DNA of 64,000 nucleotides from Golubevia sp. BC0850 (lineage: Eukaryota; Basidiomycota; Exobasidiomycetes; Golubeviales; Golubeviaceae), in contig JAAVVG010000015.1 in assembly GCA_012976225.1 (NCBI GenBank), forward strand, positions 1 to 64,000. The letters are read 5' to 3'. Below the pieces are notes generated by a model. It was not told where the DNA came from, did no database searches, and saw nothing but the letters and a program-made list of their open reading frames with translations. Within the stretch, counting starts at the first letter, position 1; each line of letters begins with the position of its first letter. Made by a program: the position numbers and the translations under genes. Positions 697-55,667 of this stretch are shown piece by piece.

Positions 697-3600
697 CTAC
701 CTTGAATTGAAAGAGAGATCCGCTGGATCGTACCAATCCAAGTCAGCACCATCTTGAGCGGAATCAGCAGATTTGTCAGCTTCTATAGCTTCTTCGTCTA
801 ACCTGGCAGCTTCCGCTGGATCATAAGTTGCATCGTCTTGAGCAGTTTCGGCTTCTGAATAATCGGAAGTTGGAGAATTTCTACCTTCTTGTTCCTCCAC
901 CTCTTCCTCTTCATCTCCCTCACTAGGTTCGATCTCATCTCGATCTTGATCTTGATCCGCAGCTGGAGATTCCGTAGACATGTTAGCAAAAGATAGAGTC
1001 ATCGGAGTCTGAGTGATGTCAGCTTCATCAGCTTCGGGTTTCTCCTCATCCACTTTCTCTCCTTCTCCATTCCAAGGAGGCTGAGATAATCGACTAGAAG
1101 AATTCCTAGTAATAGCTGAAGTTTGACTATCCCTATCTCTACTAGAAGTTCCAGATTCGACATTTCTTCTCTCTCTCCTCCTAGTCCTTTGAGGTGGCGT
1201 AGTAGGTTTTGGAGAAGAAGATCCACCTTGAAGTTGAGCCAACAGTGATAAAGCTTTATCCGAAGGTTCAACAGGAGATCCAGGAACAGGAGGAGTGACT
1301 GAAATAGTTTCTCCATCCGCAGAGATAGTCGAGAGTTCCGAATTGGTAGCAGTCATTCCAGTTGTAGAATCTGATTCCAAAGAGTCGTTTCCAGCTTGAT
1401 CTTTAGGGTTAAGGCCTTCACTAGTTCTTCCAGATCTTCTAGCTTCACCTCTCTCCCTAGCTTTCCTCTTTGGTTTACCAGTGAGACCACCAGATCGAAG
1501 GTTCCCAAGTAGAGTTTCCAGAACAGCGCCATCGTCGACTCCTGCGTCCTTTCTAGCTTTGGCTTCCATTCTCTCTTTCTCCTTTTCTTCGGCAGCAGCT
1601 CTTCTCTTTGCTTCTAAAGCTCTTTGCTCTCCGATCTTGATGTTTGCGATCTTGACCTTCTTGTAAGAAGCCTGGAATTCCTTGAAGATACCGAAGAAAT
1701 CCTCCGTTCTCATGGCAGCTGGAGCTGGGAAACCTCTTCGTTTTGGATCTGGACCTTCACCAAAGTATCGAAGGGCTTCCATGTAGGTTCTTTCTGTGAA
1801 TTGAACTTGATCTGAAAGTCGAGATAGCTCTGACGAAGCTTCATTGAGGAAAGGGATCATGATCTTGGAATAAGGATCTGAAAGTCTGGATTCATCTTCA
1901 TCTAAGAATCGATCTAATTCCTTCTTGTGCTGAACCGAACCAGATTTGAGCTCTGCTAAATCTCTCTTGAGATCCAAGAGTTGAACTGCGTAGCATGAGA
2001 TGATGAGAGAGTCAAGGGATCAGCGTCTAATCAGAGAATAACTTCCAACTTTATCACCTTCCTTTCTTTCCCCCTCTTTGCGTGTTCAAAACTCACCTCT
2101 ACAAGCCTCACTAGGTTTCTCCAATTCTTCCAAGAATGCTTCAGTTTCAGGAAAGTATTTCTCAATGGTTCTCTCAACGAAATGGAGTAAAGTAGTTCCA
2201 TCAGCAGCCTTGGTATCGACCAATTTATTGATACTAGAGATTTTGAAACCAAAAGCACCACCTTGAACTCCGGTAGCATTGAGGAAATTACCCATCATAA
2301 GAATCAAGCTCAGTAATCTGGCAAAATTCTCCGCCTTGACAAGAGATTCACTTCCATCTCTGATACCTCGCGAGCCTTCCTTAATTAAGTCGTGAGTCTC
2401 TCTATACTTGGTCATGTAAAGTAAACCTTTAACTTTCTCCTTCAGATGAGGAACAGTCATCAGCAGAACGACTAATCTATCAGCTGGATGAAGCAATCTT
2501 AATTCTTCATCTGAAGCATTTCGATATTCTCCAAGTTGACCTTTGGTTTCAGATTCAGGATAATGTCTTAAGAGTTCAGTTAAGAAACTTTGATCTAGAA
2601 TGGATTCATGGCAGTTGACGATGTGATGAGCCACTTCTTCAGGAGTAGCATGTTTAGCACCGGGAACAAGAGAAGATTTGACTCGATGGAGGACCATTTC
2701 GATTCCCTGTCTGGTTTGAAGAGAAAGATGAGTCTTCAATTCCAGCTTGTCCTTCTTGGCTGCAGTTGTAATCCTTTTAGTCGCTTGTTTGGCTTTGAAG
2801 TCCTCTTCCATTTCTTCGAACAAACCACCTTCTCTGAGAGCTTGAGCAAAGATGGCCTCGTCCTCTGTCGACTTGGCCCAAATTGTCTCTGCAGCATGTT
2901 GAGCTGAAAGCTTGTCCCACTGAAGTTGTTTCATCCTTCCCTTTGCAAGATCCGAGACCTCCTTTCTGTTAAGCAGAGCAGAAGCTAGATAAGTTGGGAC
3001 TGGAGGAGCTGGAGGAGCATTTGTAGGGCCCGCTGGACCATAATCTCCAGCGTAAGATGTTCGAACGTTGAGCATCGAATCTCGCAGGTTTCCATCTGAG
3101 TCTCTGATCTGAGCTTTTGGAGGCAAACCTCGAGCTGAAGGAGAAGGTGGAGGAGGCTGACCAAGAGTGAGAGCTTGTTGGACTTGAGCAGCGTGAGCGA
3201 GTTGAGCCATTTGGTACTGCTGGATTTGAGCTGGAGTGAGAGCCGCTTCTCCACTGTTGACTGAAAGGGCTGCTGCTTGTTGAGCTGGAGTTTGAGGAGT
3301 AGATCCAGGAGGCGGTGGAGGAGGAGGTGGAGGTGGACCGCCACCCATATCGACTGAGGCTCGAGCTGAAGAGATTGGAGTTGAGAATCCGGACGCCAGA
3401 AGGACTGGTGGAGGCGGCGGCGGCGGCGGCGGTGGAGGTGGCATGAGAAGAGAATCCGCTTGTGATTGATTGATGATTGGAGCTGAGGCTAGAGGTGGAG
3501 GCGGAGGAGGAGGCGGGGGAGGAGGAGGAGGCCCATCAAATTGATCCGAGCTGGAAACCGATGGAGAGTCTTCGACCCCAGAAGGTGTTGGACCGAGTCT

Positions 3601-6600
3601 CTTCTTTCGAATCTCATCCAAGAAGCTGGGTGCTTGAACTGTTGCTTGGGCAGGAGGGGCTGGAGGTGGAGGAGGAGGTGGAGGATAGGCAGAGTCCGGG
3701 AGAGTAACGTCCCTAGAAGTTTGAGGAGAATCCGTCCCACTGTTTGAAGTTTTCCGATCCGGTCTTCGTCTAGTCTGCCTAGCTTCCACCATTCTAGATT
3801 GAAGATCCGTATTCTTGGCCATCCCAGCAGCCAAGGTGGCTTGCATCTTCCACTCATTAATTTGACCTTCTTGAACGTCTTGAAGATCTTCTTCGTCTGA
3901 AATCTCAGAGAATCTCTCTTCATCTGAGATCTCTTGGGCAGATTCCAAAACTCTCGAGGAAGACAATCTCTTGGAGTTTCTTTCTTTCCTCACGGAATCT
4001 TCGATCTCTTTCCTGACCAATTGTTCTTCTTCTCTCTTCAGGTCCACCGGAGGAGTAGCTTCACTCCCTCCCAATTCTCTCTTCTTCCTTGCATTGGCTT
4101 CCAGTTTCTCAACAGTTTTTGCTCGTTGAAGTTGTCTTTCCAAGGATTCCTCCAGTTGAGACTTCATCTGATTATGTTTAGGACCTAAACTTCTTCTATC
4201 GTTTCCGCTCTCTCCATTCCCAACCATTTCAACCACTTGATCGGCTCTCGATTTCCCCCTCTCTTCTTTCAAAGATTCGTAAAGTTCTTTGATTTGGATC
4301 TCTAGAACCACAATTCTATCTACATAACTCCTTTCCATTTCTTCCAAATCAACTTTCCCAGCATTTTGATTTGCTCTAGAGATTTCTAAATCTTCTCTCA
4401 ACCTTTCTAATTCTTCTTGAAGTCTACCAACTAAACCGTCTGAAGTTTGATTCAATTGATCATCCAACTTATCTCTCTCTAACTCTGCTTCTCGTAACCT
4501 TGATTTAGTGGAAGTCAGTTCATCTTTGGTCTTTTGAACTGCGTCTTGATCTGCAAACCTTGAAAGAACGTTGTTGACTCCAACTCCAAGAAGAGAAGAC
4601 AAATCATTCCCTTCAACAGCTCCTTTTCGATCCATGACAACTGCCGTCACAAGAGAATCTACCAGCTGATAATGATGAGCAAGAGCGTCTCCATCCTGTC
4701 GAATCAATAACAAGTGTTGTAAGCTTGACAAGAAGAAATCATAAGCTCTAGTCCCAGTAGTTTTATCCAGAATGGCTTTGAAGACATCGACTGGATCTGA
4801 CATATCAGTCAAGATATCTCTGTTGAAAGTTTCCACCACATCTTCATGATCATTTTCAGCTCCTTTCTCAAAGACTAAGATTTGAGAATCGAGTTCATGA
4901 TATTTGAAAGCCCTCATTTTGATCAAAATCCTTTGTAAACCAGAAGCATCCATTTGGTTCCTAAGATGGACCCTAACATCGAACTCCGAGACTATTGAAG
5001 GATCCAGAATTGCGTTAACGACATACATGTTATTGACCGCATATTCATTTAATGAAGATTCATTCGAAGTTCCTATTGAAGAGTTGGTTGAGGAAAGAGT
5101 TGAGAAGTGATGATGATTTGAAGAAGAGATACTCATTTTCTTAACTTCATCAGAAGCTCCAACCAAAGATCCCATTTTCCCTCTTCCATCTAGAGTCTGC
5201 TCCAAAATTCTGAACCAAGCATCGAATCTTCCATGGTCATTGTTAACGTTTTTGAGTTCATCAAAACCTTTGAGAACCAATCTATGACCATTCGGTTTTT
5301 GCCAATGAGCTAAGAAGAGTAAGATGTCTGCAGCTTGTTTCCTAGAGGCTAAAAGTGTCGAAATCATGGAATGAGCGATTCCAGTGACACATTTAGGTTG
5401 AGCCAGCGCATCAGCAGCTCCAGGTCTCGAATTAAACAAACTTCTAAAGGCCTTCAAAGTTTCATATTCCAAACTCAAATCCACTTCATTCTTGATCCCT
5501 TTAGCATGCAATCCACCCAAGAAAGATCCTAAAACTGGAGTTCCTTTAGCAGCTACGAAATCTTCAATCCAACCTAAAGCACAAGTTCTCAAGGTGACTG
5601 ATAAAGATTCGATGTCTTTGGCTTTCACTGATCCATCCATGAACTTCTTAATGAACCATTCTGGAGTTCTACGAGCTGAATTTGAATTCGAACTGTTGTT
5701 GTTCCCACTTGAAGAGTTCGACAAAGCAGGATGATGACCATATCCAACTCCAGCTGAAGAAGAAGCGTAAGATTCTCTAGTGTTCCCATTACTTCCTCCT
5801 CTGTCATGTCCTCCCGCTCCTCCACTTCCTCCATTCTTGACCTCTGACCATTCAGTCAACTTATCATTGTAAACCAACTGCCACTTCTTATCTTGAGGGA
5901 AGCCCAACATGTTCCTTCTAGCAGCATCCTTTAATTCATCAGTCAATTTCCCACCCGGTAAATCCAAAAAGTCCCTCTTAGACATTAATTCCAAAAAGAG
6001 CCTATCGATTTCAGAAGAGCTGGGTCTTGGGAACTGAAAGTCTGAAGAGGATCCTACTAAAGCAATTTGACTTGAAGATTGATCCCTACTACCTCTTGAG
6101 GACGAAATCGAAGGTCCTCTAGCTGAAGGATGATAAGAGGAAGGAGGAGCCCCTCGATTGGTTGGAGGAGTCGCAACTTGATGAACGTGATGATGCTCAG
6201 AGTTGAAGCCCTGTCCTTGAGGGGGATTGGAAGAGGAATTGTTACTAGCGTAAGACATTCGATTCAGAACTTCGGAAGTTAAACCACTTGAAGAAGAACT
6301 AGAGGCGGAAGGAGGAGGTCCTAGATTCCTGTCCCTTTCGTTGCTGTTCGATCCCATACTCGAGTTGGTGTATCTGCTAGAGCTAGTCTTCATAGTGTTT
6401 CCATTCGGATATTGATAATTCTGATTTGGATTCAAGCTCTCATTCCCTCGAGCGTAAAGACTTGTGTTGGTTGAATTGTTAGATGTTCCTCCGTATCTAG
6501 AAGAGAAGCCTGCTCCATTTGAAGAGGTCCCAGATGGGTTTCGAGCATGAGAACTAGCAGGGTAACTGGGAGAGGTTCCAGTAGGAGAGGACGGTCCGTT

Positions 6601-7452
6601 CCCATTTGGAGATGAAGAGGAGGAGTAGGTTCCGAAATCATCTGGATCTGCAGAGAGCTGTTAGAAATTTTTCAAGTAAGGGAAACAAGAAGAGGCGGTA
6701 AAGAGAATTGAAAGGGAGAGGGGCGGGAGGCAAGAGGTGATCAGCAATAGAACAGAATTCTCCTTTCCGAAGAAAATTTTTGAGAGTAAGAGATAATCTA
6801 GAAGTCCCATTTAGAGTCTGTAACAATCCATGATTTACCGCCAACAGAAACAAGAGCGAGATACAGGACGCGGGAGTGTGAAGGACCCAAGACCAGAAGA
6901 AGCTCAACACCCACACATCAAAGAGAAAGTAGGTGTCGTATTTTCGGAAATGCTTGACCAAGTGATCGAACAGAACAGTTCTGAAATTCCATGAGTGGTC
7001 CCCCTCGCATGATCTCCCAAGAATGGGAAACTTCAGGTTGGCTTCCTTATCATCGTAACCCAGCCAACCTTTTCGTGGGTACTTTCAACCTGCGCGACCT
7101 AAGAAGCTCTTCTCTTTCATTGGCTGAACCATCACTATCCCATCTCTCCTCGTCGCCTGACCTGTCCATCTTCCCTCCCACTCTTAACTCTCAACTGCCT
7201 ACTCACGTATCTCTCCCTATCTCTACCAGTCCCCACTCCCATTCCTAGAGTTGGATTCCCACTGGGATTGGAGATGTACATCCCATTGCTCCCTAATTGA
7301 CCAGGCTGATAATCTCTATTGATTCTGGACATGCCACCAGAGACAGTATCGACATTGACCGGATTTCTACCACTAGAGGTTCGCTCGTATGGAACTGATC
7401 TATCAGCTGGATCGGTTGGTTGTCTCTTCTTCTTTCTGGAGAAGAGATCCAT
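697..7452 (-). CDS. Diaphanous/Bni1-type formin, actin nucleator
   Basis: Formins nucleate and elongate unbranched actin filaments for polarised growth and cytokinesis under Rho GTPase control. Model: exons 7452-7227, 6647-2097 and 1985-697, giving 2021 residues. The protein starts MDLFSRKKK. A GBD/FH3 regulatory region lies at about 276-640, coiled coil at about 800-1000 and a proline-rich FH1 at about 1055-1250 with several long polyproline tracts. FH2 spans about 1290-1735 and includes the family motif GNFLN. A DAD-like autoinhibitory motif (VLETLLGNL followed by a basic cluster) is at about 1744-1778. The 3' intron (2096-1986) has GTGAGT and CAG ends and joins CR to VQLLDLK in phase. The 5' intron (7226-6648, 579 nt) uses GTAGAG; a GTGAGT lies nearby at 7206 but gives the wrong phase. 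The order GBD-FH3-FH1-FH2-DAD is complete, so an intact, autoinhibited formin is likely. The exact first intron is the weakest part. Confidence 0.93.
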
Positions 7453-8572: not shown

Positions 8573-10840
8573 TCAACGCATAACAGTTTGAGTATAATCG
8601 TATTTGGCGAAGAATTTCCTGCAAGAGAAACGCAGATGGAAAGCCGAGAAGAAGAAAAGCAAAGTCAGTGATTTCCAGACTCACCTCAACAAAAGTCAGT
8701 ATCAAGAAAGAGAGAGAGAGAGAGAGAGAACTCACTCAGAATCAGTAGTTTCTTCGTTTCTTCTAGCACCTCTCTTGGTTCCCTTTCCTTCTGCCAAAGC
8801 CTTTGCTTCTTTCTCAGTTCTGAATTGTCTGTCCTTTCTTAGCCACTGTAATCCAAGAGCTAGAAGTGGAGAGACAGAAGTATCTGAATTGAGAGGTTGA
8901 TTTTTGGTGGAAACCAGACTTGAAGAATCTCTCTTTGGAGGCCAAGACAAAGCAGGTTCAGGAGTTGAACCTAATCTCATATGAACTAAATGAGTTGGGA
9001 AAGATTGAAGTCCATCGAAGATGTGGGTTGCGTCTAGAAAGAAAGAAGGGGGGGGTTGGGGAAGAGGAAGATGAAGGCCAATTTGGGGCAGGCAATGAGA
9101 AAGAAGCAAGAAATGTCCAAAACTCTTCTCTTTCTCGACTCACAAATGATAGTAGCTTTTCTAGTCTTAGTTTCTTCTGTCAAAAAGTCCAACAAATCTG
9201 ATCTTACCTGAACATCTAAATCTACAGTGACCTCGTCCAGAAGAAGTAAATCCCAAGGTTCCATCAAGCCCATGCATAATTGAACTCTCCTTCTCTCTCC
9301 ATCAGAAATGGCATGCATATGCCAATCAACATCTACGTCCAAAATATCCAAAAGTTTATCTCTTCTCTCCTTATGTCTATAACCACCAATGGAATCCAAG
9401 AAATGAGAAACCACGATGTCACTTCTAACGACTGGATTCATAGCCCATTCAGTTCCTAAATAGGTGATGCCTCTCGGGGCATTCCTAAATACATCTCTAC
9501 CAAAAACGAGAACTTTTTGATCTGAAGCGATCAACCTTTTACCTGCTAGAATTCGAAGGAGAGTTGATTTTCCAGCACCGTTTGCTCCTATAAGAAGAGC
9601 TCTAGAACCTTTTGGTAGAGAGATCGAACAATCACTTAAGGCTGGTTCCATTCCTTTTTGAAAGGAAAAAGTTAGAGATGGAACTGAAACTGCTAAATCT
9701 TGAGGTGAAATTTGAGTTGAATCTTTCATTTCTGTATCTTCTGAAGAGAAGGTATCATTCTTTGAATTCCAATCCCAGTATCCACCACTTCTATTGACTA
9801 ATTTTTTTCCTAAAGCTTCGACTTCCGAGAGAAGCTTCTCTCCACAAGTGGAAACTTCTTCTTCAGAGACTTCTACGAAAGAGATTAAATCTTTGGAGGA
9901 AGCTGGGATGAAACCTTCTTCGATTGCAGAGTTGATCAGAGTACGTAGAGGTGAGAAAAAGTCTCGTAGGTTTAGGAGGACCATTGCTGGGAAGAAAGAA
10001 AGGAGGGGGGACAGATGGAGGAAGCGGGTTAGAAAAAATGGAAGTTGAACACGTGTTGGCAAGAGGATTAGCTTACGTTTGGCGTGAACTCCTAGTTGAG
10101 TCCAGGTGACCATTTCGAGAACTGGAATGGTTGGATAGGGGTGGAGGTGAATTAGTTTAGATGGTGAGTATAGAATAACAGCCGCCGGGGGGAGGGGTGG
10201 GAAAGAGAAGAGAGTTTGTCAGCACCTTCCAGCTCTCTACCCGATGTTTCTTTCTCATTACTCCCTCCCAAGACTTCTAAATCTGATCTGAATTGAATTT
10301 GACCAAATGATGAAGCGTCTTTTTCCAAGCAACACCGCGTCCCTAGCCTCTGGTCCTCCTCACTCCTCACTCCTTCTCCAATCTCCACCCTCCCCTCCCC
10401 TTCGACTCACCTTCCTCAAAAGTCCCAAATCCACCAGGAAGTGCTACGAAACCCATATCAGCTTTCTCGGCCATTAAATGTTTCCTCTGATGCATACTCT
10501 CCACCACAGTAGTCTCCATATTTTGACTATCAGCTTCTTTCAAGATGTTTTCTCCTTTACCTTCAGTAGAAGTGGCAGTGGCAGTGGCGTTGTTAGGATG
10601 ACCATTAGGTTTGGTAGACATGACTCTTGGAATGATTCCATGAACTTTACCACCATTTTCTAATGCAGATTGAGAAACTTTTCCCATTAAACCTCTTGAA
10701 CCACCTCCATAAATTAAAGTCCAATCTTTTGTTGCTATGGATGAACCCAAAGATGAAGCTGCTGCAAGGTAAGATGAGTTAACTCCTGGTGAAGATCCAC
10801 AGAATACGCAAAGGGATGGAGGTGGAGTGGAATTTGTCAT
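8573..10840 (-). CDS. Fusion of LOG-family phosphoribohydrolase and CAF16-type ABC ATPase
   Basis: Five exons: 10840-10411, 10121-10077, 9986-9144, 9033-8736 and 8618-8573, total 553 residues. Residues 1 to about 220 are a LOG/TIGR00730 Rossmann protein: CVFCGSSPG near the start, IYGGGSRGLMG at 43-53, SMHQRK at 115-120, PGGFGTFEE at 135-143, then WTQLGVHAKPMVLLN. LOG enzymes release cytokinin bases from nucleotide monophosphates. From about 258 the protein is an ABC ATPase without membrane segments, like yeast Caf16 (CCR4-NOT associated): Walker A GANGAGKST at 292-300, signature SDGERRRVQ, Walker B LLLLDEVTVDLD and the H-loop YATHIFDG. The last exon supplies KFFAKYDY, a C-terminal tail I recall from CAF16 relatives. 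Exon 3 runs from LOG into ABC with no stop, linked by about 35 polar residues. All introns are phase-consistent. Two genes sharing a transcript is the alternative, but LOG would then have no stop codon. Confidence 0.85.
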
Positions 10841-11257
10841 GGTTTGAGCAAGATGAAGAAGAAGATGAAATTGTAGATGACAAAGCTATGAGATTGGCGG
10901 TGGAGATGAGAGAAGAAGTGAAGTTGATAGAGAACAGATGTAGCACGAAGCATGTACAAGGAGGCAACGTTTCACGCATGGGCTTGAATTCTCAAGTCGG
11001 AATAAACATCGTCTTCTCCCAAGACTACCATCATCATCATCATCTTCATCTTTCTATACTAACAATAGAAGAATGGAAATGAACTCTACAGCTTAAAGCA
11101 AGACTCCAAAGTGAAACAACTGAACAGGAGAACAGACAACTCCTTATCTCTTTCTTCTTCTCTATCATTCCCATCCTCATCGCCTCATCCTCTCATATCT
11201 CTTTCTCTCCATTCTCCATCTCATTCTGAAATAGAAGTGACTGATCCAATCACCAGA
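10841..11257. promoter_or_regulatory. Divergent promoter region
   Basis: The LOG-ABC gene starts leftwards at 10840 and the next gene rightwards at 11258, so this 417-bp stretch must hold both promoters. It contains a short CATCAT tract near 11027-11045 and CT-rich runs just before the plus-strand start. No defined operator is recognisable. Confidence 0.5.
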
Positions 11258-13570
11258 ATGGCCTCCAGATCAACTTCACCACCCACTCATTCTCATTCCA
11301 CCTCCAGCCCGGATCCCAATCCGGGCCCAGCCTCAGCCTCGAACTCACTCTCAACTTCATCCAATCATTCAAGAACCTCCTCTTCTTGTCTTTCACTTCC
11401 GCGTGCATTTTGGACTTCATCAGATTCAGATTCAATCTCGAATCCACCTCCAGTTTCCCAAGCTGAGTCTCAGTCTGCCCTCGGTTTATTCCAAGATAAG
11501 AACATGAATGATGAACTCCAGATCGGTTCAAACAGTACCTCTTTAGAATGGGCTGATTCAGATACTGAGCTTACATTTAAAAGTAACAGATCCAATAGAT
11601 ACAAGTGAGTCTTCTCTCGCACCTCACCTCCAACCAAGCTGCATCATTTTATCTGACGACCTCCCTCTACCTTTACTTATAGATCTCCTGCTCGTTCATC
11701 GGAAATGAACTCGATATCTTCTGCTCACAGCAAGAACTCGCCAATCCCATTTCCTAGTTCTGAAAGCCCAGCGATCTCTTCTAATTCTTCCATCGGATCA
11801 AGGTCTCCCTCTCTTTTCTCAAATAGCCCACCTGTGGGAAAGAACAGCGTTTCGAATCTTTCAAGCTATGACAATTCTCCAGCAACTTCAATCCATCCTT
11901 CACCTCAACTAGAAAAGACAGCAAGACTCCAACGTTCCAGAACCAGACATTCCCTGTCTTTGAATGAAGGTAATACAAGTCCTAGTCGTCACAAGTTCAG
12001 ATCTTCAATCTCAGGTACTAGAAACCTTGAAAATCGAATTCAAGAAGAAACAGGTCTAAGAGGTGGTCTTCGATCCTTCTCAAGTCTCGGAAATTTTCGA
12101 AATCTAGCTACCTCAGCAGCTAGTGCAGCTGCTCTTTGGACTTCTTTTGTATCTCCTAAATTAAGAAGTGGGGGGACTTTGGCTCCTCCTCCAACCAGTG
12201 CTTCTGAGGAAGAAGGCTCTTGTAGTAGCTTCGGTTTAGAAGAAGAGGGCGGAATGGAAGATTTAACTGAAACAGAAAGTAACTGGAAGACAATTGAAAG
12301 ACCTTATGGCATTCATGACAGATCGAAAAGTGCACCTCAAAATGTTGGAACTTTGGTTTCTAAGTCCGAGAGACCTTTTAAACTTAGTAGGAAACGGTTA
12401 GACAAGGCTGTTTCTGCTGCATTGGAAGCTGCTCAAATACTGGAGGAAGAAGATTTGGTCAAAGAGAAAACTAAATTGAAGAGAAAGGAGAAAGCCAATT
12501 TGAAGGAATTGAAGAGACGTAGAGAACTTTTGTTTAGGCAGGAATTGAAGAAGGTCAGAGCTTCTAGAAATGGTTTAGGAATCGATATGGGAGAAGTTCC
12601 TAATTCACCATTCTCTTCGAACCAATCTTCAGATCTGGATGATGAGACATCAAGACGTTTGGAAAGAGATTTTTTTTCAGCTTTAGCAAGTTTGAGCTCT
12701 GACTCGGAAAGATTAGATGAGGAATCAGAAGCAGATGAAGGAGAAGATCAAGATCCAAATCTAGCTCTGGACCTTTATATTTCCTCGGTTTCTCATCTGC
12801 TGAATGCTTTACCTGCTTCCTCATCAACAACGAATCCTTCAAGCATTTCTCCACAACTCTCAACTTCTCGAAAGTTTTCCAAAGAACGACTCAGTCCGAC
12901 TAGTAGAGCTCTTTCCCTATTTTCTTCTTCCAGTAAACACGAACAATCTGCATCGGAACTATTAAGGAATCGAACGCTCTCATCTCCGGCAAATCCTCAA
13001 TCTTCCTCGATTCCAGAAAAACAAAGAATTGAATTGAAACTTCAATTAGAAGAGGCTTTGAAGAAATTGGGTTATGAACCTCTTCCTGAATCTTCGAATC
13101 AACCTCGACTTCAAACTCAAACAAGTCCTCCAGAAGTTGAAATTGGAAGCACTTTCGCCACCGAAGATGGGAGAAATGGAGAAGTAGTTCATCATCATCA
13201 TTATTACATGCCATTCCATCTGGTCGGAACTCCAACAAACCCTTCACCAGAATCATCTGTCAACAAACAAGATCAACTTCCACCTCCCAAACGACAACGT
13301 ACGATCTCTGGTTTCTTGGCTTCTACAGCTTTGGACGTTGGTTTGACGATTGGTGCGGGTGCTCTAGCAGCAGCTAGTCGTGGAGTAGCTTCTCTTTCTC
13401 CAATTTTGGTTGGAAAGGAATCTCACAAAGTTGATCAGATGGAAGAAGGTTATCTCGGAGAATTGGAACCGAACGAATTGAAAAGTTCGTCGCTACCTAG
13501 TTCTGTTGGAGGAAAGGATCAAAGGCATTATCCTTACACTAGCATTCCAAGATCTAATACTTGGACTTAG
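11258..13570 (+). CDS. Hypothetical disordered serine-rich protein
   Basis: Exons 11258-11604 and 11683-13570 join in phase (GTGAGT donor, TTATAG acceptor) to give 744 residues to the first stop. I chose the ATG at 11258 because the longer open frame upstream has no ATG. The protein is mostly Ser/Pro-rich and looks disordered. Recognisable parts are a Lys/Arg/Glu-rich likely coiled coil at roughly 330-385 (LKRKEKANLKELKRRRELLF), an acidic patch (ESEADEGEDQDP), a second short helix (RIELKLQLEEALKKLGYEPL), a HHHHYYMPFHL patch and a hydrophobic Ala/Gly stretch (TIGAGALAAASRG) near 660. I do not recognise the family. Coding-like sequence continues in other frames after the stop (see 13571-14163), so the true C-terminus is probably longer. 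Confidence 0.75.
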
Positions 13571-36192: not shown

Positions 36193-39100
36193 ATGCCATC
36201 CTCAAGCCGCAAAGTTCAGAACGGAAAGAAAGATGAAGAAGCAATTCAAATCTTAGATTCAGAAGATCAAGAGAGTCGCTTAAGCAAAGATGGTGATCGT
36301 GGTGTATCAGAGGAAGAAGAAGTGGAGATGGAACAAGTGGATCTGGATATGGATATGGATTTGGATTTGGATGAACAAGATCATGATGAAGATGAAATGG
36401 AAATGGAACAGGTAGATCTACAAGAAGATGATGAACAACCCTCTCTTTCACTTTATCAAGATATTTATGCTCAGCAAGATCAAGATCAAGACACAGATCT
36501 TCAAAATGAAGATCAAGATCCAGATGGAGAAGGGCAAGATGGAGATGAATTGATCTATAAAGATGGGAAAGGTCAGCCTAGAAATGCAGATGGTTCTACT
36601 TCTAGAAACATAGAAATCAAAATCTCTAACAAGGGAAAGGAGAATGAGAAAGAGAAGAGGAAGCTGAATCCTAATACTCCAACTTCCAGAGATAAAGTTA
36701 ATCGATTGGCTGCTCATAAACTTCATGTTTTGAGCTTGTTAGCTAGTGCGAAGTTGAGGAATAAATGGGCTGATGATGAAACTTTGAAGGTGAGTGAGAT
36801 GGGAGATGAGAAAGGAGGAGAGATGAGAAGGGAGAGAGAGCTGCTGCGCTCGATGCTGCTGAGGGAGGCCAAGAAGGAGCTGATTGAAGAGCGTCTTGAG
36901 ATAGCAATCTGAACGATCGTGCTCAGTTTGCCCTGCTGGAAAGAGCCAATGTTAGCCAATGTTTAGAGCACATTTAGAGCTTGGACGAGCCAGCCAAAGA
37001 TACCCAGCTCATGTCTCTCTTCCCATTTTCACAGGATGAACTCTATACCTTATCACCTACAGATTTTCCGAGAAGACTTGAGAAGATGAAGAAATCTCAG
37101 ACTCCAGAACTTCGAGAAAGGGTCAGATTATTCGAATCTTTAATTCAAAATCTCACAGCTTGGTGGTCTCACAACTTCATCCTAGATCCCAATGCAACGT
37201 CTCTTGGAGCTTTGAGACAGCCAAATACTGATATCCTTAGTGGAGATTTGCCAATTGAAGGTCGAAGGATCGATGGGTGGATAGTAGAGAGTGGAAGTGA
37301 AAGAGAAGCAAGACAGAAGAGAGATAGAAAGAAAGCTTTGAGAGAGGAAAGGGAAAGGAAAGAAGCGGAAGAGAAGTTTAAGGAGAAGAAAGATTTGGAC
37401 CAAAAAGGGAAAGGAAAAGCTAGAGCTATAGATGTTGATGAAGAAGATGACATCTTTGAGTCAAACGCTTTCGCTTCTACTTCCACTTCTACTTTTCAAA
37501 ACGCTAATTCGGTCAACTCAATAGCGACTCGTAAGAGAACTGAGATTACTCTGTTCGGTCCAGGAACTAACATCAGACCGGTTTATCTTCGATTACTTCC
37601 GAATCCTGAAATCATCAGAGGTCCATCAGATTTGAGAGAAGCAGCAAAAGCTTTCAAAGGATCCAGAGAAACATCTGCTCAATTGATGGTGGCTATGTGT
37701 AGAGCTTTAAATATTCCTGCTAGATTGGTGATCAGTCTTCAAGTTGTTCCTTGGAGTGTTGGAGCGAGCAAGGTTGCTACCACTAGCATTCACACTCCTC
37801 AAGAAAGAGAATTGATGAAGAAAAGTGGGAAAAAGAGAAGCAAACTGCCTAGTAAGCCTGAAAAGATTGGAATTGGAAGGAGGAAGAAAGTGGAGACGAT
37901 TCAAAATCAGAAACCGGTGGATGAAGCTACTAGTGACGACGAGTATTTCACTGAAGAAGAGACGGTGGAGAAGCTCAAGAGCTCAAAAGGGAACGGGAAA
38001 GTGAATGGGAAATCAAAAGCGAAAGAAGAAGCTTCAAAGTCAAGGCAGAGTCAAGCTCAGCTCAGTGGGAATGAAGCAACAGCAAGAAGACAGATCTCCG
38101 AAGCCAAGAAGAAGAATGGAACCTCCTCTAGACCGGTCAGTGTCGATAGCAATAGTACTGGAGACGCTGGAGAAGTCAATGGAAATGGAACTGGCTCAAC
38201 CTCTCGAGATGCCGTCGTCATCGATAGTGGAAACGAGTCTTCTGCTTCGAACCTTTCCAAAAAGGGAAAGCAGAAGGCAGTAGATACCTCTGGAGCGGAA
38301 CCTCAGCTGGCAGACGGAACCAAATGGTCCCCTTCAAAGCCGAAGACTCCTTGGAAACCTAAGCTCAGAACATCAAGACCTAGGCAGTTGAAGGCTACCG
38401 AGCTCGCTCCGGACAAGTATTCTGAAGACGTAGAGCCAATTGATGTCACATCTCCTCCTACGATGTGGGTGGAAGTCTATGGAAGAGCTATCAAGAGATG
38501 GTACACTATCGACCCTATCAGGGGTTTCGTTCCACCTTTAGATGGCTCTCGAAGAATGGAACCTACTCCTTCAGACAGACAGAACAAGCTCGTCTACGTA
38601 GTAGGATTCGAAGAAGACGGGACTGGAAGAGATCTCACTCCAAGATATACCAAAACTCTTCACACAAGAATATCAAGAATGAGACCTCCTTCGAGTTTGA
38701 AAGGTGGCGAAGACTGGTGGTCTACTATTGTCGACTCTATGAAGAGAAAGCCTAGACCGATAGAAAGAGACGCAGTAGAAGACATCGAATTGGAGAACTA
38801 TTCAAATAAGGAAGCGATGCCAACTTCCGTAGCTCAGTTCAAAGATCATCCAGTTTTCGTCTTGGAAAGACATCTCAAGAGAGAAGAGGTCGTTTTCCCT
38901 AAGACTTTGGTTTCTAGATTCGATGGAGGACCAGTCTATTATCGGAAAAACGTGGTAGAAGTCAAGTCGGTTAGATCTTGGTATAGAATCGGTAGGATCG
39001 TTAAAGATGGAGAAGAGGAATTGAAAAGAGTCAAAGCTAGAAATGCCTATACCATGAGGAGGAAAAGAGAACAAGAAGCCGCCAAACTAGAAGAAAATCA

Positions 39101-40332
39101 TCAGGCAGAAGAAGAATTCCTCTATGCTGAGTTTCAGACGGAATTGTTCGTTCCTCCTGCTATCGGTGATGATGGAAAAATTCCAACCAATTCCTTTGGG
39201 AATATCGATTTGTTCGTTCCCAGTATGCTTCCTCCACATGGAGCTCACATTCCTTACAAAGGATCTGCAAAGATCGCCAAGAAACTGGGAATTGAGTACG
39301 CAGAGGCGGTGGTGAGTTTGAATCAGAAAGTGCGAGGCTATCAGGAGATTCCATCAAATTGATCATCACTTCTTCCTCATCCCCTTTCTTTCTAAAGACT
39401 GGATTTGATTTCAAAGCGAAAGTCGCTGCTCCAGTTCTTTCAGGGATAGTCGTAGCAGCCATCTATGAGGAGACCGTCAAAGACGTGAGCATTCGCGAGT
39501 TTTTGTTCAGCGCTTTCGTTCTCTTTTCCAACCGCTTTCTTCCACTTCTTGACCTTTCGATTCATCACAGGCCTACTGGGAAAGTGAGCAGATCAATGCC
39601 CAGAGGGAAACGACCAAGAAGCAGGAGAGAGCTCTCAAGAACTGGAAGAAGCTACTCAATGCAGTTAGAATTGTTCAAAGAATCAACAAACAATATGGAC
39701 CTGAAGGATCTTCTGCAAGTGGAATGAACGCAAGCAATGCTCCTGGACATTCTAAAGCTCTTCCAGAAGGAGTCAGTAGACTCAAAGACATGAGAGAACC
39801 TGAGACGAGTAAAGCTGCTTCTTCTTCTCCAGCTGGGGGGTTTGTGGTTGAAGATGAAGAAGACTCAGAAATGTCGGATGGAGAAGGAGTCGATAAGGAA
39901 GCAATGGCGGATGCCGTGAGGTTCATGAAAGCTCAACAACAAGCAGAGGAATCAGAAGCTAGACAGACTTCGACTCCAATCAATGGAAATTCAACAGTTC
40001 GAATTTCTCTCACTTCTAGTACCGATGGTAAACGTCGTTCCAGAGCACAAGTGGAGCAGTCAGCTGAAGACGAAGATGATCCTGAAGTTGTAGATTCTTC
40101 TCCAATCCCGACTAAGAGACCAAGGCGTCAAGTCCAATCTTCGACTCCCAACCAGTCGCCTTCTACTTCGACTAGACCAAGGAGATCGATCAAGGTCAAA
40201 ATTCCGACCACTTCAGCTTCCAGTGCGTCGACTCGTCGCAGCGAAAGAGCTAAAGGAGAGAAGTCGAAAGAACAACTAGAGAGAGAAGAACAAGAAAGAT
40301 TGTTAAATGAGGAGGATTCTGAAGACGAATGA
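36193..40332 (+). CDS. RAD4: Rad4/XPC nucleotide-excision-repair damage sensor
   Basis: Recognises helix-distorting DNA lesions with Rad23 and starts nucleotide excision repair in the nucleus. Exons 36193-36789, 37008-39311, 39398-39484 and 39571-40332 give 1249 residues; all donors are GTGAGT or GTGAGC, phase 0. The first exon is strongly acidic with DMDMDLDLD-type repeats. The transglutaminase-like domain is split: MVAMCRALNIPARLVISLQ near 420-445 and MWVEVYGRAIKRWYTIDPI near 685-705, separated by a basic, disordered insert. BHD1 begins near 805 (FKDHPVFVLERHLKREEV), BHD2 has VYYRKNVVEVKSVRSWYRIG and BHD3 has FGNIDLFVPSMLPPHGAHIP followed by exon 3 (KVAAPVLSGIVVAAIYEE). The C-terminal 250 residues are acidic and disordered. 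Longer than yeast Rad4 (754) because of disordered parts; nothing is broken. Confidence 0.96.
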
Positions 40333-44816: not shown

Positions 44817-46453
44817 TCACAAAAAGAACCTCCTAAATCCATATCGCTTCAAATGTTCCTCTTTCTTTCCCTCTTCCTTATCTCCAAAGCTAACCAATCT
44901 CAGACCTTTTTCGTCCGGTTTCCCAACCTTTATTGGACTTTTGTTGTTCATAGCTTGATTCTTTTCTACTTCAGGTTCGAATTTGATGTCCTCCTTTCCA
45001 ACCAACATCATAACATTTTCTCTCAATTTCTTCATCCAGGTGATTTTATCTTTAAGTTGAGAAGAAGTCACTCTACCACTCGTTGAAGGTGTACAAAAGA
45101 AGAGAGTGACTTGAGTCTGTGATGCGGAGGTTGAAGTTGGAGTCGAGCTTAGTACCTCTTCTGCCTTGATTTCGGCATTGGCACGAGCATCCCTAAGACT
45201 TTCTTTCACCTCTGTTTCGGATTTTTGCTGTTTATAGGATAGAGCTGACGTCTGAAGAGTACTTTCGGTCCCACTGAATCTGTTCCCTTCTTCAATCTTA
45301 ACAACTTGATCTTCATCCTCGATTCCATCCGAATGAACCAAACAGAACTCCATAAACCCATAAGCATTTCTTTCCTTCTCATGAAAAATCGGTAAATCAT
45401 CTTTGAGATCTGAATAGTGAAGATCTTCGTTGTCGTCGTCCTCCTTGAATAAAGTGCCTCTCTCAAATCGTCTACCATCTCCACCGTTCCTTGAGCTTTT
45501 TGTTCGTCCCAAATCTTGAGGTCTAAATTTGCCCTTGCTAGCTTTACCATAATCTTTTCGATGCTCTTGATCCGACTCTCTACTTCTCACCCACTTCTCC
45601 ACCATCCCACCAACTCCCTTTCCAACGAAACAAACCACCTTCGGTCTACATCTTTGAACTTTCTTCATGAATCCAGGAACTGATTCAAATAATTCTTGGG
45701 CGCTCAACCCAGTAGAGGAGACTGTAGGTCTCGAGCATAAATTCGTTAAGCCTAATTGAAGAGGTTTCAGAGTTGGGAAGAGATAATCAGACGATGGAGG
45801 TAGAAGAGTTGAGGTGATTGAAGAATGGAATAACGAAGGATAGAACTGGTTGGTTGGATGAGCGAAGTGATGAGATTGAGTGGCCTGGGAGAAGAGGGAG
45901 GGGAGGAGTGAGATGGATGACCAACAAAAGTGAAAAGGTGGAGAGCGTGGAAAAGACTGACTGATTGAATTCCTGGATTTATTCCACAAAAGAGAACTGG
46001 TTGGTGGCCAGGGGGAAAAGAGAAGGAGATGAAGGAGGGTCAATAGGCAAAGTAAGTGGATGAGTCAAAGACAACGACAACGAATGACATGAAATCTGTA
46101 CAGAAGCTATACTCACTATCTAGATTTTCAGCTAGAATATCAGGTAAAGGCTTCAAATGAGAGTGTAACTCTGGATCTGAGTATCCTTTCCTTTGTTTCT
46201 TCCCTTTCGAAGTAGAGAGTGGAGACGAAGATCTCTTTAAAGAACTAGGTGTACCGATTGCTTCTTCTTCTTTCGTCTTTGCCCTCCCATTGAGCTTCCC
46301 CGGAGATCTATAGTCCTTGAATTTGGATGTAGAAGGGGAGGAAGGAGAGCTGGAGTAAGACCACTTCTCCAGAAAATTGGCTGGGAGGGATGGCTTTGAG
46401 TCGTCGGATGACTCCACGTCTTGATCAGAGGTTGAGCTGGATCTGCTTTTCAT
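44817..46453 (-). CDS. Mismatch-specific uracil/thymine-DNA glycosylase (MUG/TDG type)
   Basis: Excises uracil or thymine opposite guanine to start base excision repair in the nucleus. Exons 46453-46117, 45996-45962 and 45884-44817 give 479 residues. The catalytic motif ILFCGINPGIQS is encoded by a 35-nt middle exon (GINPG at 117-121), followed by ATQSHHFAHPTNQFYPSLF, GLTNLCSRPT, KVVCFVGKG and a second motif CTPSTSGRV near 385. The N-terminal 110 residues are disordered and the region at about 210-380 is an acidic/basic insert. Intron 2 starts GTCAGT, as in chorismate mutase. Upstream open frames to 46758 lack a consistent start, so I begin at the ATG at 46453. The core is complete, so activity is expected. 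Confidence 0.92.
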
Positions 46454-49463: not shown

Positions 49464-52400
49464 CTAGTTGATGATCCCTTCCACCTCATTTCCCCTCTCT
49501 TGCTGCTTCTCCCATTTCGCCCATCTAGCCTTCTGCAGCAAATGTTGACAAATGTCGAAGTCGGAAGACATTGACATGGAACTTGAGAGAGCATTTGAGC
49601 TATCCCCATTTGCTTGACCACCATCGAAAGCAGAAAGACTTTCATCTTCAAGCTGACTGTCCAGAGAAGCTCTGTACTCCTCAAAGTTGCTGAAGGAAGT
49701 CGGCTCTTCCCTCGAGTCCCATTCCATTCCATCGTTACTCTCTTCTCCTTCTTCTCGATTCCAAACTCCAGCACCTCCATACGATCCCTCCCCAGTGGCA
49801 TGCCTGGCTGACCTGACTTGAGAGCTTAAAGACCTTTGATTGAAAGAGTTGAGATCGAGAGTGGAAGGGAACAGCAAAGAGGGTTCGACTTCCTCTTTGC
49901 TCTCGTCGATTACCTTGAAGTCTCTTGTCAGCAACCTGGATCCTGGGTTCGAAGAAGGCGCACTTGAAATTCCATTTGAGCTTCTCGTTCTTTCTCTTTC
50001 CGAACTAATCTTTCTACTTCTGACCAAGGCTGGACTTGCGCAAGGACTTTCTCCACCTTCCGACAGACCAGTAGGACTCGGTTCTCTCCATTTTGGTTTC
50101 CAGCTCGATGTTTTGGAGTTTGAATCGGCCAATGAATCCTCATCTTCCTCGATCGTTGCTTGATGAAAGAGAGTGTTGGAACCACGATAGTGATTCGCGA
50201 AACTTGACGAAACTGGAGAGAAATTTGAAGAAGCAGAGGGAGATAGAAGATCCAAATCGATAGAGTTGTCGGAACCTTGATTCTCCAGAGGTCCATTACT
50301 CAAGCTTGCACCCAATCTAGACAGAGCGAAGGTTTTCCATTCCTCCAATTCCACAGTGTTCCTCGAGAAATCGGTTGAGATGTCAGGAGATCTGACAAAG
50401 TAATCTTTCGGGAGTGTCACTGAGTTCTGACGACTAGAAGCGATTGAAGAGATTCCAGTGTCCCTAGGTGGATCTAGATCGGGAGAGAATCGAGCTCGAT
50501 GAGGTAGAGGATGAGATCTTGGAGTTCTACCTCTTCCATTCCCAGGAAAAGAGAAGCGCGGACGAGAAGCTTCCTTCGGAATCGAGTCATCACCCAGAGA
50601 CATCCTCAAGGGGCTTGGTGAAGTACAACGTTGATCAGGGAATTTGAAGGGATTGACGGTGGGAGAGATCAAACCTAGTCCGATTGGTCCTGACTGGCTG
50701 GAAGGAGAGGAAAAGGTTGGAAAAGAGCCATCTCGTGGACTTTGAGTGGTTGATTGAGGAGCAGTGGAAGATCTTGATTTCTTAGGACTTTGAGCACTTG
50801 GTCTGCCAGGGGGGAATGAAGGATCGATGGGTGCGTTCAAACCGTCCAGAAAGTCGGCCAGACTTATTTTGGTGCGAACCGTCTTTCTATCCTCTCCAAT
50901 CCCTGGACTTGAGTTGAGCAATGGTGGACTGGTAGGAGGAGATGAAAGCTGAGACTTGGGTTGGCTTTGAGCTCGTAGCATATCTGAAGAGGCAAAGACT
51001 GATGCTTCTTCGATAGATCTTGGAGAAGTCGGGCGACCGAAGCTATTAGTTTTTGAATTCGAAAAGAGGAGAGGGCTAGTTGCTGGTCGTGACAATCCTG
51101 AAGAACGTCTTGAAGTTGATGGCGATGGATAGTTCCCTAAAGTCTCTCCGGAGCCCCATTTCTTCAATCTTTTCTGTTCACTTGCAGTCCTCTTCTGAAA
51201 TTGACCTACCAAATCCTCGAACTTGGTTGGAGTTCCGACTGAATCTCCTCTTGTGTCCAGGCTCAATCCAAGTGGTGAATTGCCCCAATCCTCCACCCAT
51301 TCCTCATTATCCCCACCTGGCGATCCCATACTGACCTCGGGCTTAACGAAGCTCAAGGTAGTCTCTTGCTTTGGCGCCTCTTTGAGAGCAGGGATTGGTT
51401 GAGGAGGTAGAGATGAAGAGCTTCCCTTCTGTTCGACGGCCTTCCTTTTGAAGATTTGAGACGAAGGGCCAGCTAGATTCATCATCGCTCCATCCAGAGA
51501 AAAGTCACAGGAAGGCATGAAGCTCATCCCCATCGCAACGCTTCTTGATCTCCTCTGCTCGTTCCAAGCGGAGGTGGTTGAAGCGGAGTGAGAAACGCTT
51601 GAGACTAGAGCAATCCTGTCATTTGAAGCTTGAGGTTCAGGATTTTCGTCTCCGAGTTTGACAGTTGAATTGAAGTTCTCCCAAGAACTCTCAGCCAAAC
51701 GACTCAGTCTCTCCAACTCCTCCATGTCGACCTCCTCGATCTCTTCCCTGAGGTTTCTATCGGGAGTATCCAAAGGCTTGAAAAGACTAGAAAGGTTTTG
51801 TTTCTTCCTCCCCTTGAGAGTTGAAATTTTGGCAGCTGATGTAGTCTTGGATCCAGTAGAGAGAGTCAGAGTGAACGGGAAAGAAGAAGTTGAAGCTTGA
51901 GAAACTGATTTAGGTCTTTGCTTGCTGTTGTTCTTTTTTTTGATTGATGAATCATTCTTCAAAGCAAAAGTTTGAAGTGAAACTGAGTTCCTTCTTGCCT
52001 TGATCGGGGAAGAATTGAATGAGAGTGAAGGAGAACAAGCCCTGCTGATTGAAGAAGAGGTAGTAGATCTTCCATCCCAACTTTCCAATCCGAAATCATC
52101 TCCATCCTCTATAGACTCTTCTTGAAAAGCTCTGAGTGAAGAAGAACCACTTCTCCAGCTGAAAGAGCTCCCACGTCTTTCACTCACACCCGAACCTTTC
52201 CTTCCACCTTCCCCCGTTCCAACACTCTCATAATCACTGACTCCAGTGCTATAATCATGAACACTGGAAGGAACGTCTGGGTTCTTCCTTTCATCAGCTC
52301 CGAGGTCCGAAGAAGTAGAAGTCGCACCGAGAGATCCAGAGTTCCTCCAAGTGACGTCTTGAGGATTCCTCTCTCTTGTGACGAGAGCAGGGCTTCTTCC

Positions 52401-54857: not shown

Positions 54858-55667
54858 GATTCATGAAGAGAAAGAAGGAGGAAGCTGGAGAAGTTTGAAG
54901 AAAGGGGCTTTGTTTGTTGGTGAGTTAGATTCCTTGCTTGTGTTTTGTTTGAGGTTGTAAAGTGCGATTTGATGAGCGGGGGTTGAGCAAAATTGAAATG
55001 ATAATAAATGAATGTGACCAGGGATAACTTGAATATCCTTGCAAGAGGAGCAGAAAGAGAAGATGGAAGAGAGAGAAAGAAGAGGAGACAGGATGATCCC
55101 AACACTGACCGAGCCGTTACCAATTCGAGAATCGAATCTAGAATCGAATTATGTTGCTTGGCTGATTGCATAATTTGATAGTCTTCGAGCTTGGAATGTT
55201 TGAAACGTTGAAGGTTCGGGATCGTCCCTTCCCAAGTTCCCATACTGGCATGGCACGTCGAAACGAAGGGAAACTCGAATGATGGGAACCGAACGAGAAG
55301 CCGAAGATTGAGATCCTGACTGCGATACTTGAGAGATGGTTGGTCTGTAAATCAAGATCAAAATCCGAGAGTAGAGAAATGAGAGATGAGATCGAGAGAG
55401 CTTTGAAGGCTAGACAGCTCCTCGAGGATTTCGTAGAAGGATCAGCAGAGGGTTATAGAGGCTGGAGGAAGACTGCCTTGCCAACTTGTTTGAGACTCCT
55501 TTCTGATTTGATTAGCAGCTCTCATTTTACTTCATTGAAATAGCATTGTTTAGTCACTAGATTGGAAGTGAATTCGGGAAGCTGCTGGTGTTCTGGACGA
55601 GCATCTTTCGAAGCCTATCTGCAGTTCTGCACCCAACACTATCCATTTCCTATTCAATCCACTGCAA
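54858..55667. promoter_or_regulatory. Divergent upstream region (Ser-rich gene and ARL1)
   Basis: 810 bp between divergent starts. Short frames here have no motif. No defined regulatory site recognised. Confidence 0.5.

Follow-up and report, generated by a model that had tools for sequence, protein, structure and literature searches.

A predicted LOG-family enzyme and a soluble ABC ATPase joined in one reading frame in Golubevia sp. BC0850

Our analysis identified a gene in Golubevia sp. BC0850 that very probably encodes a single fused protein, in which an enzyme domain of the LONELY GUY (LOG) family, whose plant members set free the hormone cytokinin, is followed by a soluble ABC ATPase domain. 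The gene lies in the window, by which we mean the whole analysed stretch of 64,000 nucleotides from contig JAAVVG010000015.1 (positions 1 to 64,000). Its coding sequence is 1662 nt long, and the spliced translation contains a single terminal stop and no internal stop. The limits proposed by the first-pass annotation are exact, with the ATG at 10840 and the stop ending at 8573 on the minus strand, and the four exon joins that it gave (FEE/VLEM, HAK/PMVLLN, ATI/YATHIF and TDSE/KFFAKYDY) are correct in the spliced translation. Its central claim, that a LOG domain and an ABC ATPase share one frame, is borne out by Pfam. Lysine_decarbox (PF03641) matches with 117.3 bits against a cut-off of 27, over profile positions 1-126 of 131, and ABC_tran (PF00005) matches the same chain with 60.1 bits against a cut-off of 25. 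The LOG and the ATPase are the only Pfam domains of the protein. Both families are known and it is their combination that is new, although it may sit unremarked in fungal protein databases. Among the matches listed from the open-licence part of PMC, none reports a LOG-ABC fusion in its title or at the start of its abstract.

Table 1. Coordinates of the LOG-ABC gene and its parts (positions in the window)
Feature	Position	Strand	Description
Whole gene, LOG-ABC fusion	8573-10840	minus	5 exons, 553 residues, spliced translation
Exon 1	10411-10840	minus	Start codon and LOG residues 1-143
Intron 1	10122-10410	minus	289 nt, GTGAGT...CAG
Exon 2	10077-10121	minus	45 nt, LOG segment LEMVTWTQLG, with prenyl-site Glu146 and Trp150
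Intron 2	9987-10076	minus	90 nt, GTAAGC...CAG
Exon 3	9144-9986	minus	843 nt, LOG C-terminus, linker, ABC part through Walker B
Linker	9694-9843	minus	Residues 207-256, 50 codons, coding in the fused frame
Internal ATG	9727-9729	minus	In frame, residue 245, sole ATG of the linker
Intron 3	9034-9143	minus	110 nt, GTGAGT...TAG
Exon 4	8736-9033	minus	H-loop YATHIFDG and tail LALGLQWLRKDRQ
Intron 4	8619-8735	minus	117 nt, GTGAGT...CAG
Exon 5	8573-8618	minus	Final 14 residues and stop

All four introns are of the GT...AG type, with the donors shown in Table 1, and their 3' ends are rich in pyrimidines (78-93% of the 27 bases preceding the last three). Retention of intron 1 would introduce a stop after 157 residues and retention of intron 3 a stop after 475 residues. 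Retention of intron 2 keeps the frame open and leaves the final stop unchanged. Retention of intron 4 would give a protein of 539 residues that terminates after TDSE; both domains are whole with either C-terminal end. The first-pass annotation had placed both complete domains within the 843-nt exon. The join between LOG and ABC does fall within this exon. However, the LOG domain is spread over exons 1-3, with exon 3 carrying it from residue 159 on, and the H-loop and tail of the ABC part are in exon 4. Exon 1 contains the motifs CVFCGSSPG, YGGGSRGLMG, MHQRK and PGGFGTFEE.

The linker bears on whether one protein is made. The last matched LOG residue is 206 and the ABC part starts at about residue 257, with no stop codon between them. 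From the off-frame stop frequency, the chance that 50 codons would stay open is about 0.06, which is weak evidence when taken alone. The codon composition is more telling. A codon score was trained on 7 other long ORFs from the window, and the linker scores 0.327 bits per codon, compared with a mean of 0.209 for coding windows and a 95th percentile of -0.038 for off-frame windows. None of 1278 off-frame windows scores as high. The coding and off-frame controls were drawn from the same 7 training ORFs, so that their spread is not a held-out one. The five other frames of the linker all score below 0 and contain 1-7 stops each.

An in-frame internal ATG had been noted near 9725; it exists, at the slightly different position given in Table 1. 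It lies just ahead of the ABC domain and could be the start of a separate CAF16 gene in a tandem or overlapping pair; alternatively, an assembly error could have deleted the stop codon of a LOG gene. We consider both of these alternatives improbable. A stop codon between the domains is absent, and only 38 codons separate the end of the LOG domain from the ATG, which therefore leaves no intergenic space. Those 38 codons belong to the linker, which has a coding-like score in the fused frame. One continuous LOG-ABC protein thus remains the preferred reading. Its linker is perhaps flexible: it is rich in Ser, Asp and Glu by eye, and residues 220-247 have pLDDT values below 50 in a model of exon 3. 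The low values are weak evidence for flexibility because relatives are unaligned in this region.

The LOG enzyme part covers residues 9-206. It matches TIGR00730 with 168.5 bits against a cut-off of 96.35, over profile positions 2-175 of 178. The PGGxGTxxE motif is present as PGGFGTFEE (residues 135-143). Arg119 and Glu143 are the predicted catalytic pair, and the proposed prenyl-binding set of Met116, His117, Lys120, Glu146 and Trp150 is complete. These roles were transferred from Corynebacterium LOG (CgLOG) by motif spacing and not by a direct CgLOG alignment. The CgLOG residues named in the source are Met96, His97, Arg99, Lys100, Glu121, Glu122, Glu125 and Trp129 (PMC4979012); by this spacing they correspond to Met116, His117, Arg119, Lys120, Glu142, Glu143, Glu146 and Trp150 of the Golubevia protein. 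The same paper describes a LOG active site that forms across the dimer, with Glu125 and Trp129 supplied by the neighbouring subunit, and a prenyl-binding set that AtLOG3, CpLOG and CgLOG have in common but that differs in MmLOG (PMC4979012).

The best solved relatives of this half are LOG-type proteins, among them 2A33 from Arabidopsis and 5AJT from Claviceps; the 5AJT alignment covers residues 4-204 (1YDH is likewise from Arabidopsis; the organism names of 2A33 and 5AJT follow PMC4979012). Alignments to 2A33, 1YDH and 5AJT show that all three carry MHxRK, GGxGTxEE, a Glu at +3 and a Trp at +7, as the Golubevia protein does. A loop at residues ~76-108 is ~23 residues longer than in 2A33 and similar in length to that in 5AJT. 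With the catalytic Arg and Glu intact and all five proposed prenyl-binding residues in place, we predict that the LOG half is a cytokinin-type LOG. We keep this as a prediction because the match to the NCBIfam cytokinin LOG equivalog NF058542, at 113.2 bits, is below the cut-off of 300; this family serves prokaryote annotation and failing its cut-off says little here, yet it is no pass. Searching the PDB with the LOG half matched 16 sequences, none longer than 274 residues. Among 47 PDB sequences matched by the whole protein at E 1e-10 or better there is no solved LOG-ABC chain, the best stretch of each lying in LOG or in ABC alone.

In the ABC half, a Walker A motif, a signature-like ISDGE, a Walker B motif with the catalytic Glu and an H-loop are all present. 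The corresponding segments are GANGAGKST (292-300), ISDGERRRVQ (385-394), LLLLDEVTVDLDV (405-417) and YATHIFDG (440-447), followed by the tail LALGLQWLRKDRQ (497-509). The Gln of the Q-loop is seemingly absent, with Thr337 in a place where 19 of 29 aligned relatives have Gln; the alignment is gappy there and this carries little weight. We scanned the ABC half against two collections, viral_contigs (15 loci) and genome_contigs (80 of 512 confirmed loci), whose members are prokaryote or viral-contig ABC ATPases by match. The best by E-value among the matches listed, locus L016, is 31% identical. Best-segment identities among the listed loci are 24-37%, with the exception of L014, at 60% over 35 Walker A residues. 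At E 1e-3 the LOG half matches none of these 95 listed ABC loci, which are therefore uninformative on the fusion.

Two eukaryotic reference sequences, both approximate, seem closer. Yeast Caf16 aligns with 42% identity over 280 columns and 213 bits, tail included, and an Arabidopsis ABCI-type sequence with 43% over 215 and 184 bits. The best of the 95 loci among the matches listed reached 79 bits with a 230-residue query. After the Walker B DE, the fusion protein has a Val; a Pro occupies this position in 28 of the 29 prokaryote or viral-contig relatives in the alignment. The approximate Caf16 and ABCI sequences both share this Val, DEVTVDLDV at Walker B and the H-loop YATHIFDG, and the tail of the approximate Caf16 resembles that of the fusion protein. 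The ABC half thus appears to fit best a CAF16-type soluble ABC protein, as the first-pass annotation had named it; since the reference sequences are approximate, the 213 bits to Caf16 make this assignment a lead.

A fold model of exon 3 (280 residues) was built from an alignment of 29 of 62 usable loci. Its mean pLDDT is 71.7. From residue 91 of the model on, 14 of 19 ten-residue blocks have pLDDT values of at least 83, while the LOG end and the linker, which are without aligned relatives, are mostly below 70. A Foldseek search with the model returned ABC ATPases, with TMq values of 0.45-0.58.

We also surveyed the rest of the window. Pfam scans of 40 of the 44 other ORFs of at least 120 residues detected a diaphanous-type formin, a protein kinase, Rad4, a tRNA m1G methyltransferase, a cofilin-type ORF, an Arf GTPase and a eukaryotic porin; most of the 40 had no Pfam match. 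These families and the short introns are in keeping with a fungal, perhaps basidiomycete, origin. The formin is on the minus strand at 700-6660, where Drf_GBD, Drf_FH3 and FH2 domains extend over two long ORFs. Near the LOG-ABC gene and on the opposite strand, two long Ser-rich ORFs (11069-13570, plus) are without a Pfam match. If they are a single gene, it may share a promoter region with the LOG-ABC gene. The Rad4-type DNA repair protein (36978-39359, plus) combines a transglutaminase-like domain with three BHD domains. One ORF (44820-46064, minus) weakly matches the uracil DNA glycosylase superfamily, with 22.5 bits, just under the cut-off of 24.3, and an uninterrupted ORF of 1798 residues (49467-54860, minus) has no Pfam match at E 0.001. 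The window contained no tRNA genes in a scan with the bacterial code and no Rfam families at the gathering score.

What the fused protein does is a separate question. The first-pass annotation had suggested a role in nucleotide salvage or in the control of RNA decay. In the latter case, the fusion would couple nucleotide cleavage to RNA decay through the CCR4-NOT complex. Two fungal ABC surveys assign Caf16 to CCR4-NOT, with Liu et al. 2001 as their reference (PMC2848647; PMC6071951). However, one of them describes its role there as poorly understood (PMC2848647), and Caf16 is not among the proteins named in the visible abstract of a study of purified CCR4-NOT, which counts nine (PMC3171648). 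A CCR4-NOT review mentions Caf16 just in a reference title, as far as its accessible text goes (PMC7692201). The LOG motifs, moreover, indicate a free nucleoside monophosphate as the substrate and not RNA, judging from the description of LOG enzymes (PMC4979012). We therefore regard a link to RNA decay as very unlikely. Of the two earlier ideas, the nucleotide one appears better supported, by the prenyl-binding set and by the plant proteins ABCI19, 20 and 21, and may be narrowed to cytokinin-type adenines.

We take these Arabidopsis proteins to be of the CAF16 type. According to a review, they have no transmembrane domain and are found in a large complex at the ER; they were suggested to be negative regulators of cytokinin responses, acting through cytokinin movement at the ER or through receptor traffic, and an interaction with COPI was noted (PMC7913349). 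The ABCI work (Kim et al., 2020) was later cited among ABC carriers of cytokinins (PMC12675277). The Caf16-like proteins of fungi are described in a 21-fungi survey as soluble, with a single NBD, and Caf16 itself as poorly studied (PMC6071951).

Based on these observations, we tentatively propose, with confidence somewhat short of even, that the protein combines a cytokinin-type LOG with an ATP-driven ABC regulator or adaptor. The N-terminal half would be a dimeric LOG-type phosphoribohydrolase. It most likely cleaves N6-prenyl-adenosine monophosphates (cytokinin nucleotides) to the free base and ribose 5-phosphate, and perhaps acts on AMP too. The C-terminal half would be a CAF16-type soluble ABC ATPase. 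Because the LOG active site spans the dimer, each LOG dimer would carry two tethered ABC domains, and such a pair would be ready for closure on ATP. Linkers of ~40-50 residues would suit an ATP-closed ABC dimer. The ABC half may position the enzyme at an internal membrane or hand on the adenine product there, a role modelled on the suggestion for plant ABCI19-21. We infer splicing in vivo, the substrate, the dimer geometry, and the role and site of the ABC half; the functional coupling of the two halves is the uncertain part of the mechanism.

A fusion can be real and still incidental. A LOG gene may have merged with a CAF16-type gene when it lost its stop codon, leaving two halves that keep unrelated jobs on a tether. 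Both domains seem complete by motif, and the Ser/Asp/Glu-rich linker is of low confidence in the model, as might be expected in that case. On the other hand, the composition of the linker is still coding-like and the motifs are retained in both domains. In addition, lasting fusions tend to unite related functions, an argument often named after the Rosetta stone. An incidental fusion is a real possibility in our view, though we doubt it. The coupled LOG-ABC protein that we favour can be read as such a Rosetta-stone link, since an enzyme that frees N6-modified adenines would be joined to a type of ATPase that affects the cytokinin response, provided that ABCI19-21 are of the CAF16 type. The fusion thus hints that the two families may work jointly on cytokinin-like adenines. 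The link to the plant proteins is thematic and of uncertain direction because ABCI19-21 were suggested to be negative regulators, whereas LOG activates cytokinins.

A bolder interpretation is that the fusion reveals an old partnership between LOG enzymes and CAF16-type ABC proteins: a soluble ABC protein, switched by ATP, would govern how N6-modified adenines are released or delivered. We think this unlikely on present evidence. If true, the CAF16 family, which is poorly explained, would have a role outside mRNA decay, and it would become clear why ABCI19-21, its apparent relatives in plants, influence the response to cytokinin. In any case, the fusion provides a concrete hypothesis, that CAF16-type ABC proteins act together with cytokinin-type adenine metabolism.

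To our knowledge, LOG enzymes and CAF16-type ABC proteins are otherwise separate proteins. The protein described here shares with LOG phosphoribohydrolases the full domain, the motif, the catalytic pair and the proposed prenyl site, and differs from them by the ABC ATPase added at its C-terminal end. Like CAF16-type proteins it has a single NBD; unlike these soluble ABC proteins, it carries a LOG enzyme ahead of the ABC part. Two papers describe fusions of isopentenyltransferase (IPT) and LOG in Claviceps, Fusarium and Rhodococcus, in which LOG is likewise joined to a functionally related protein, fungi included (PMC7913349; PMC5521058). The Claviceps IPT-LOG fusion is described in one of them as performing both of its reactions (PMC7913349). 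In the IPT-LOG fusions the partner makes the substrate of LOG, whereas in the Golubevia gene the partner is an ATPase.
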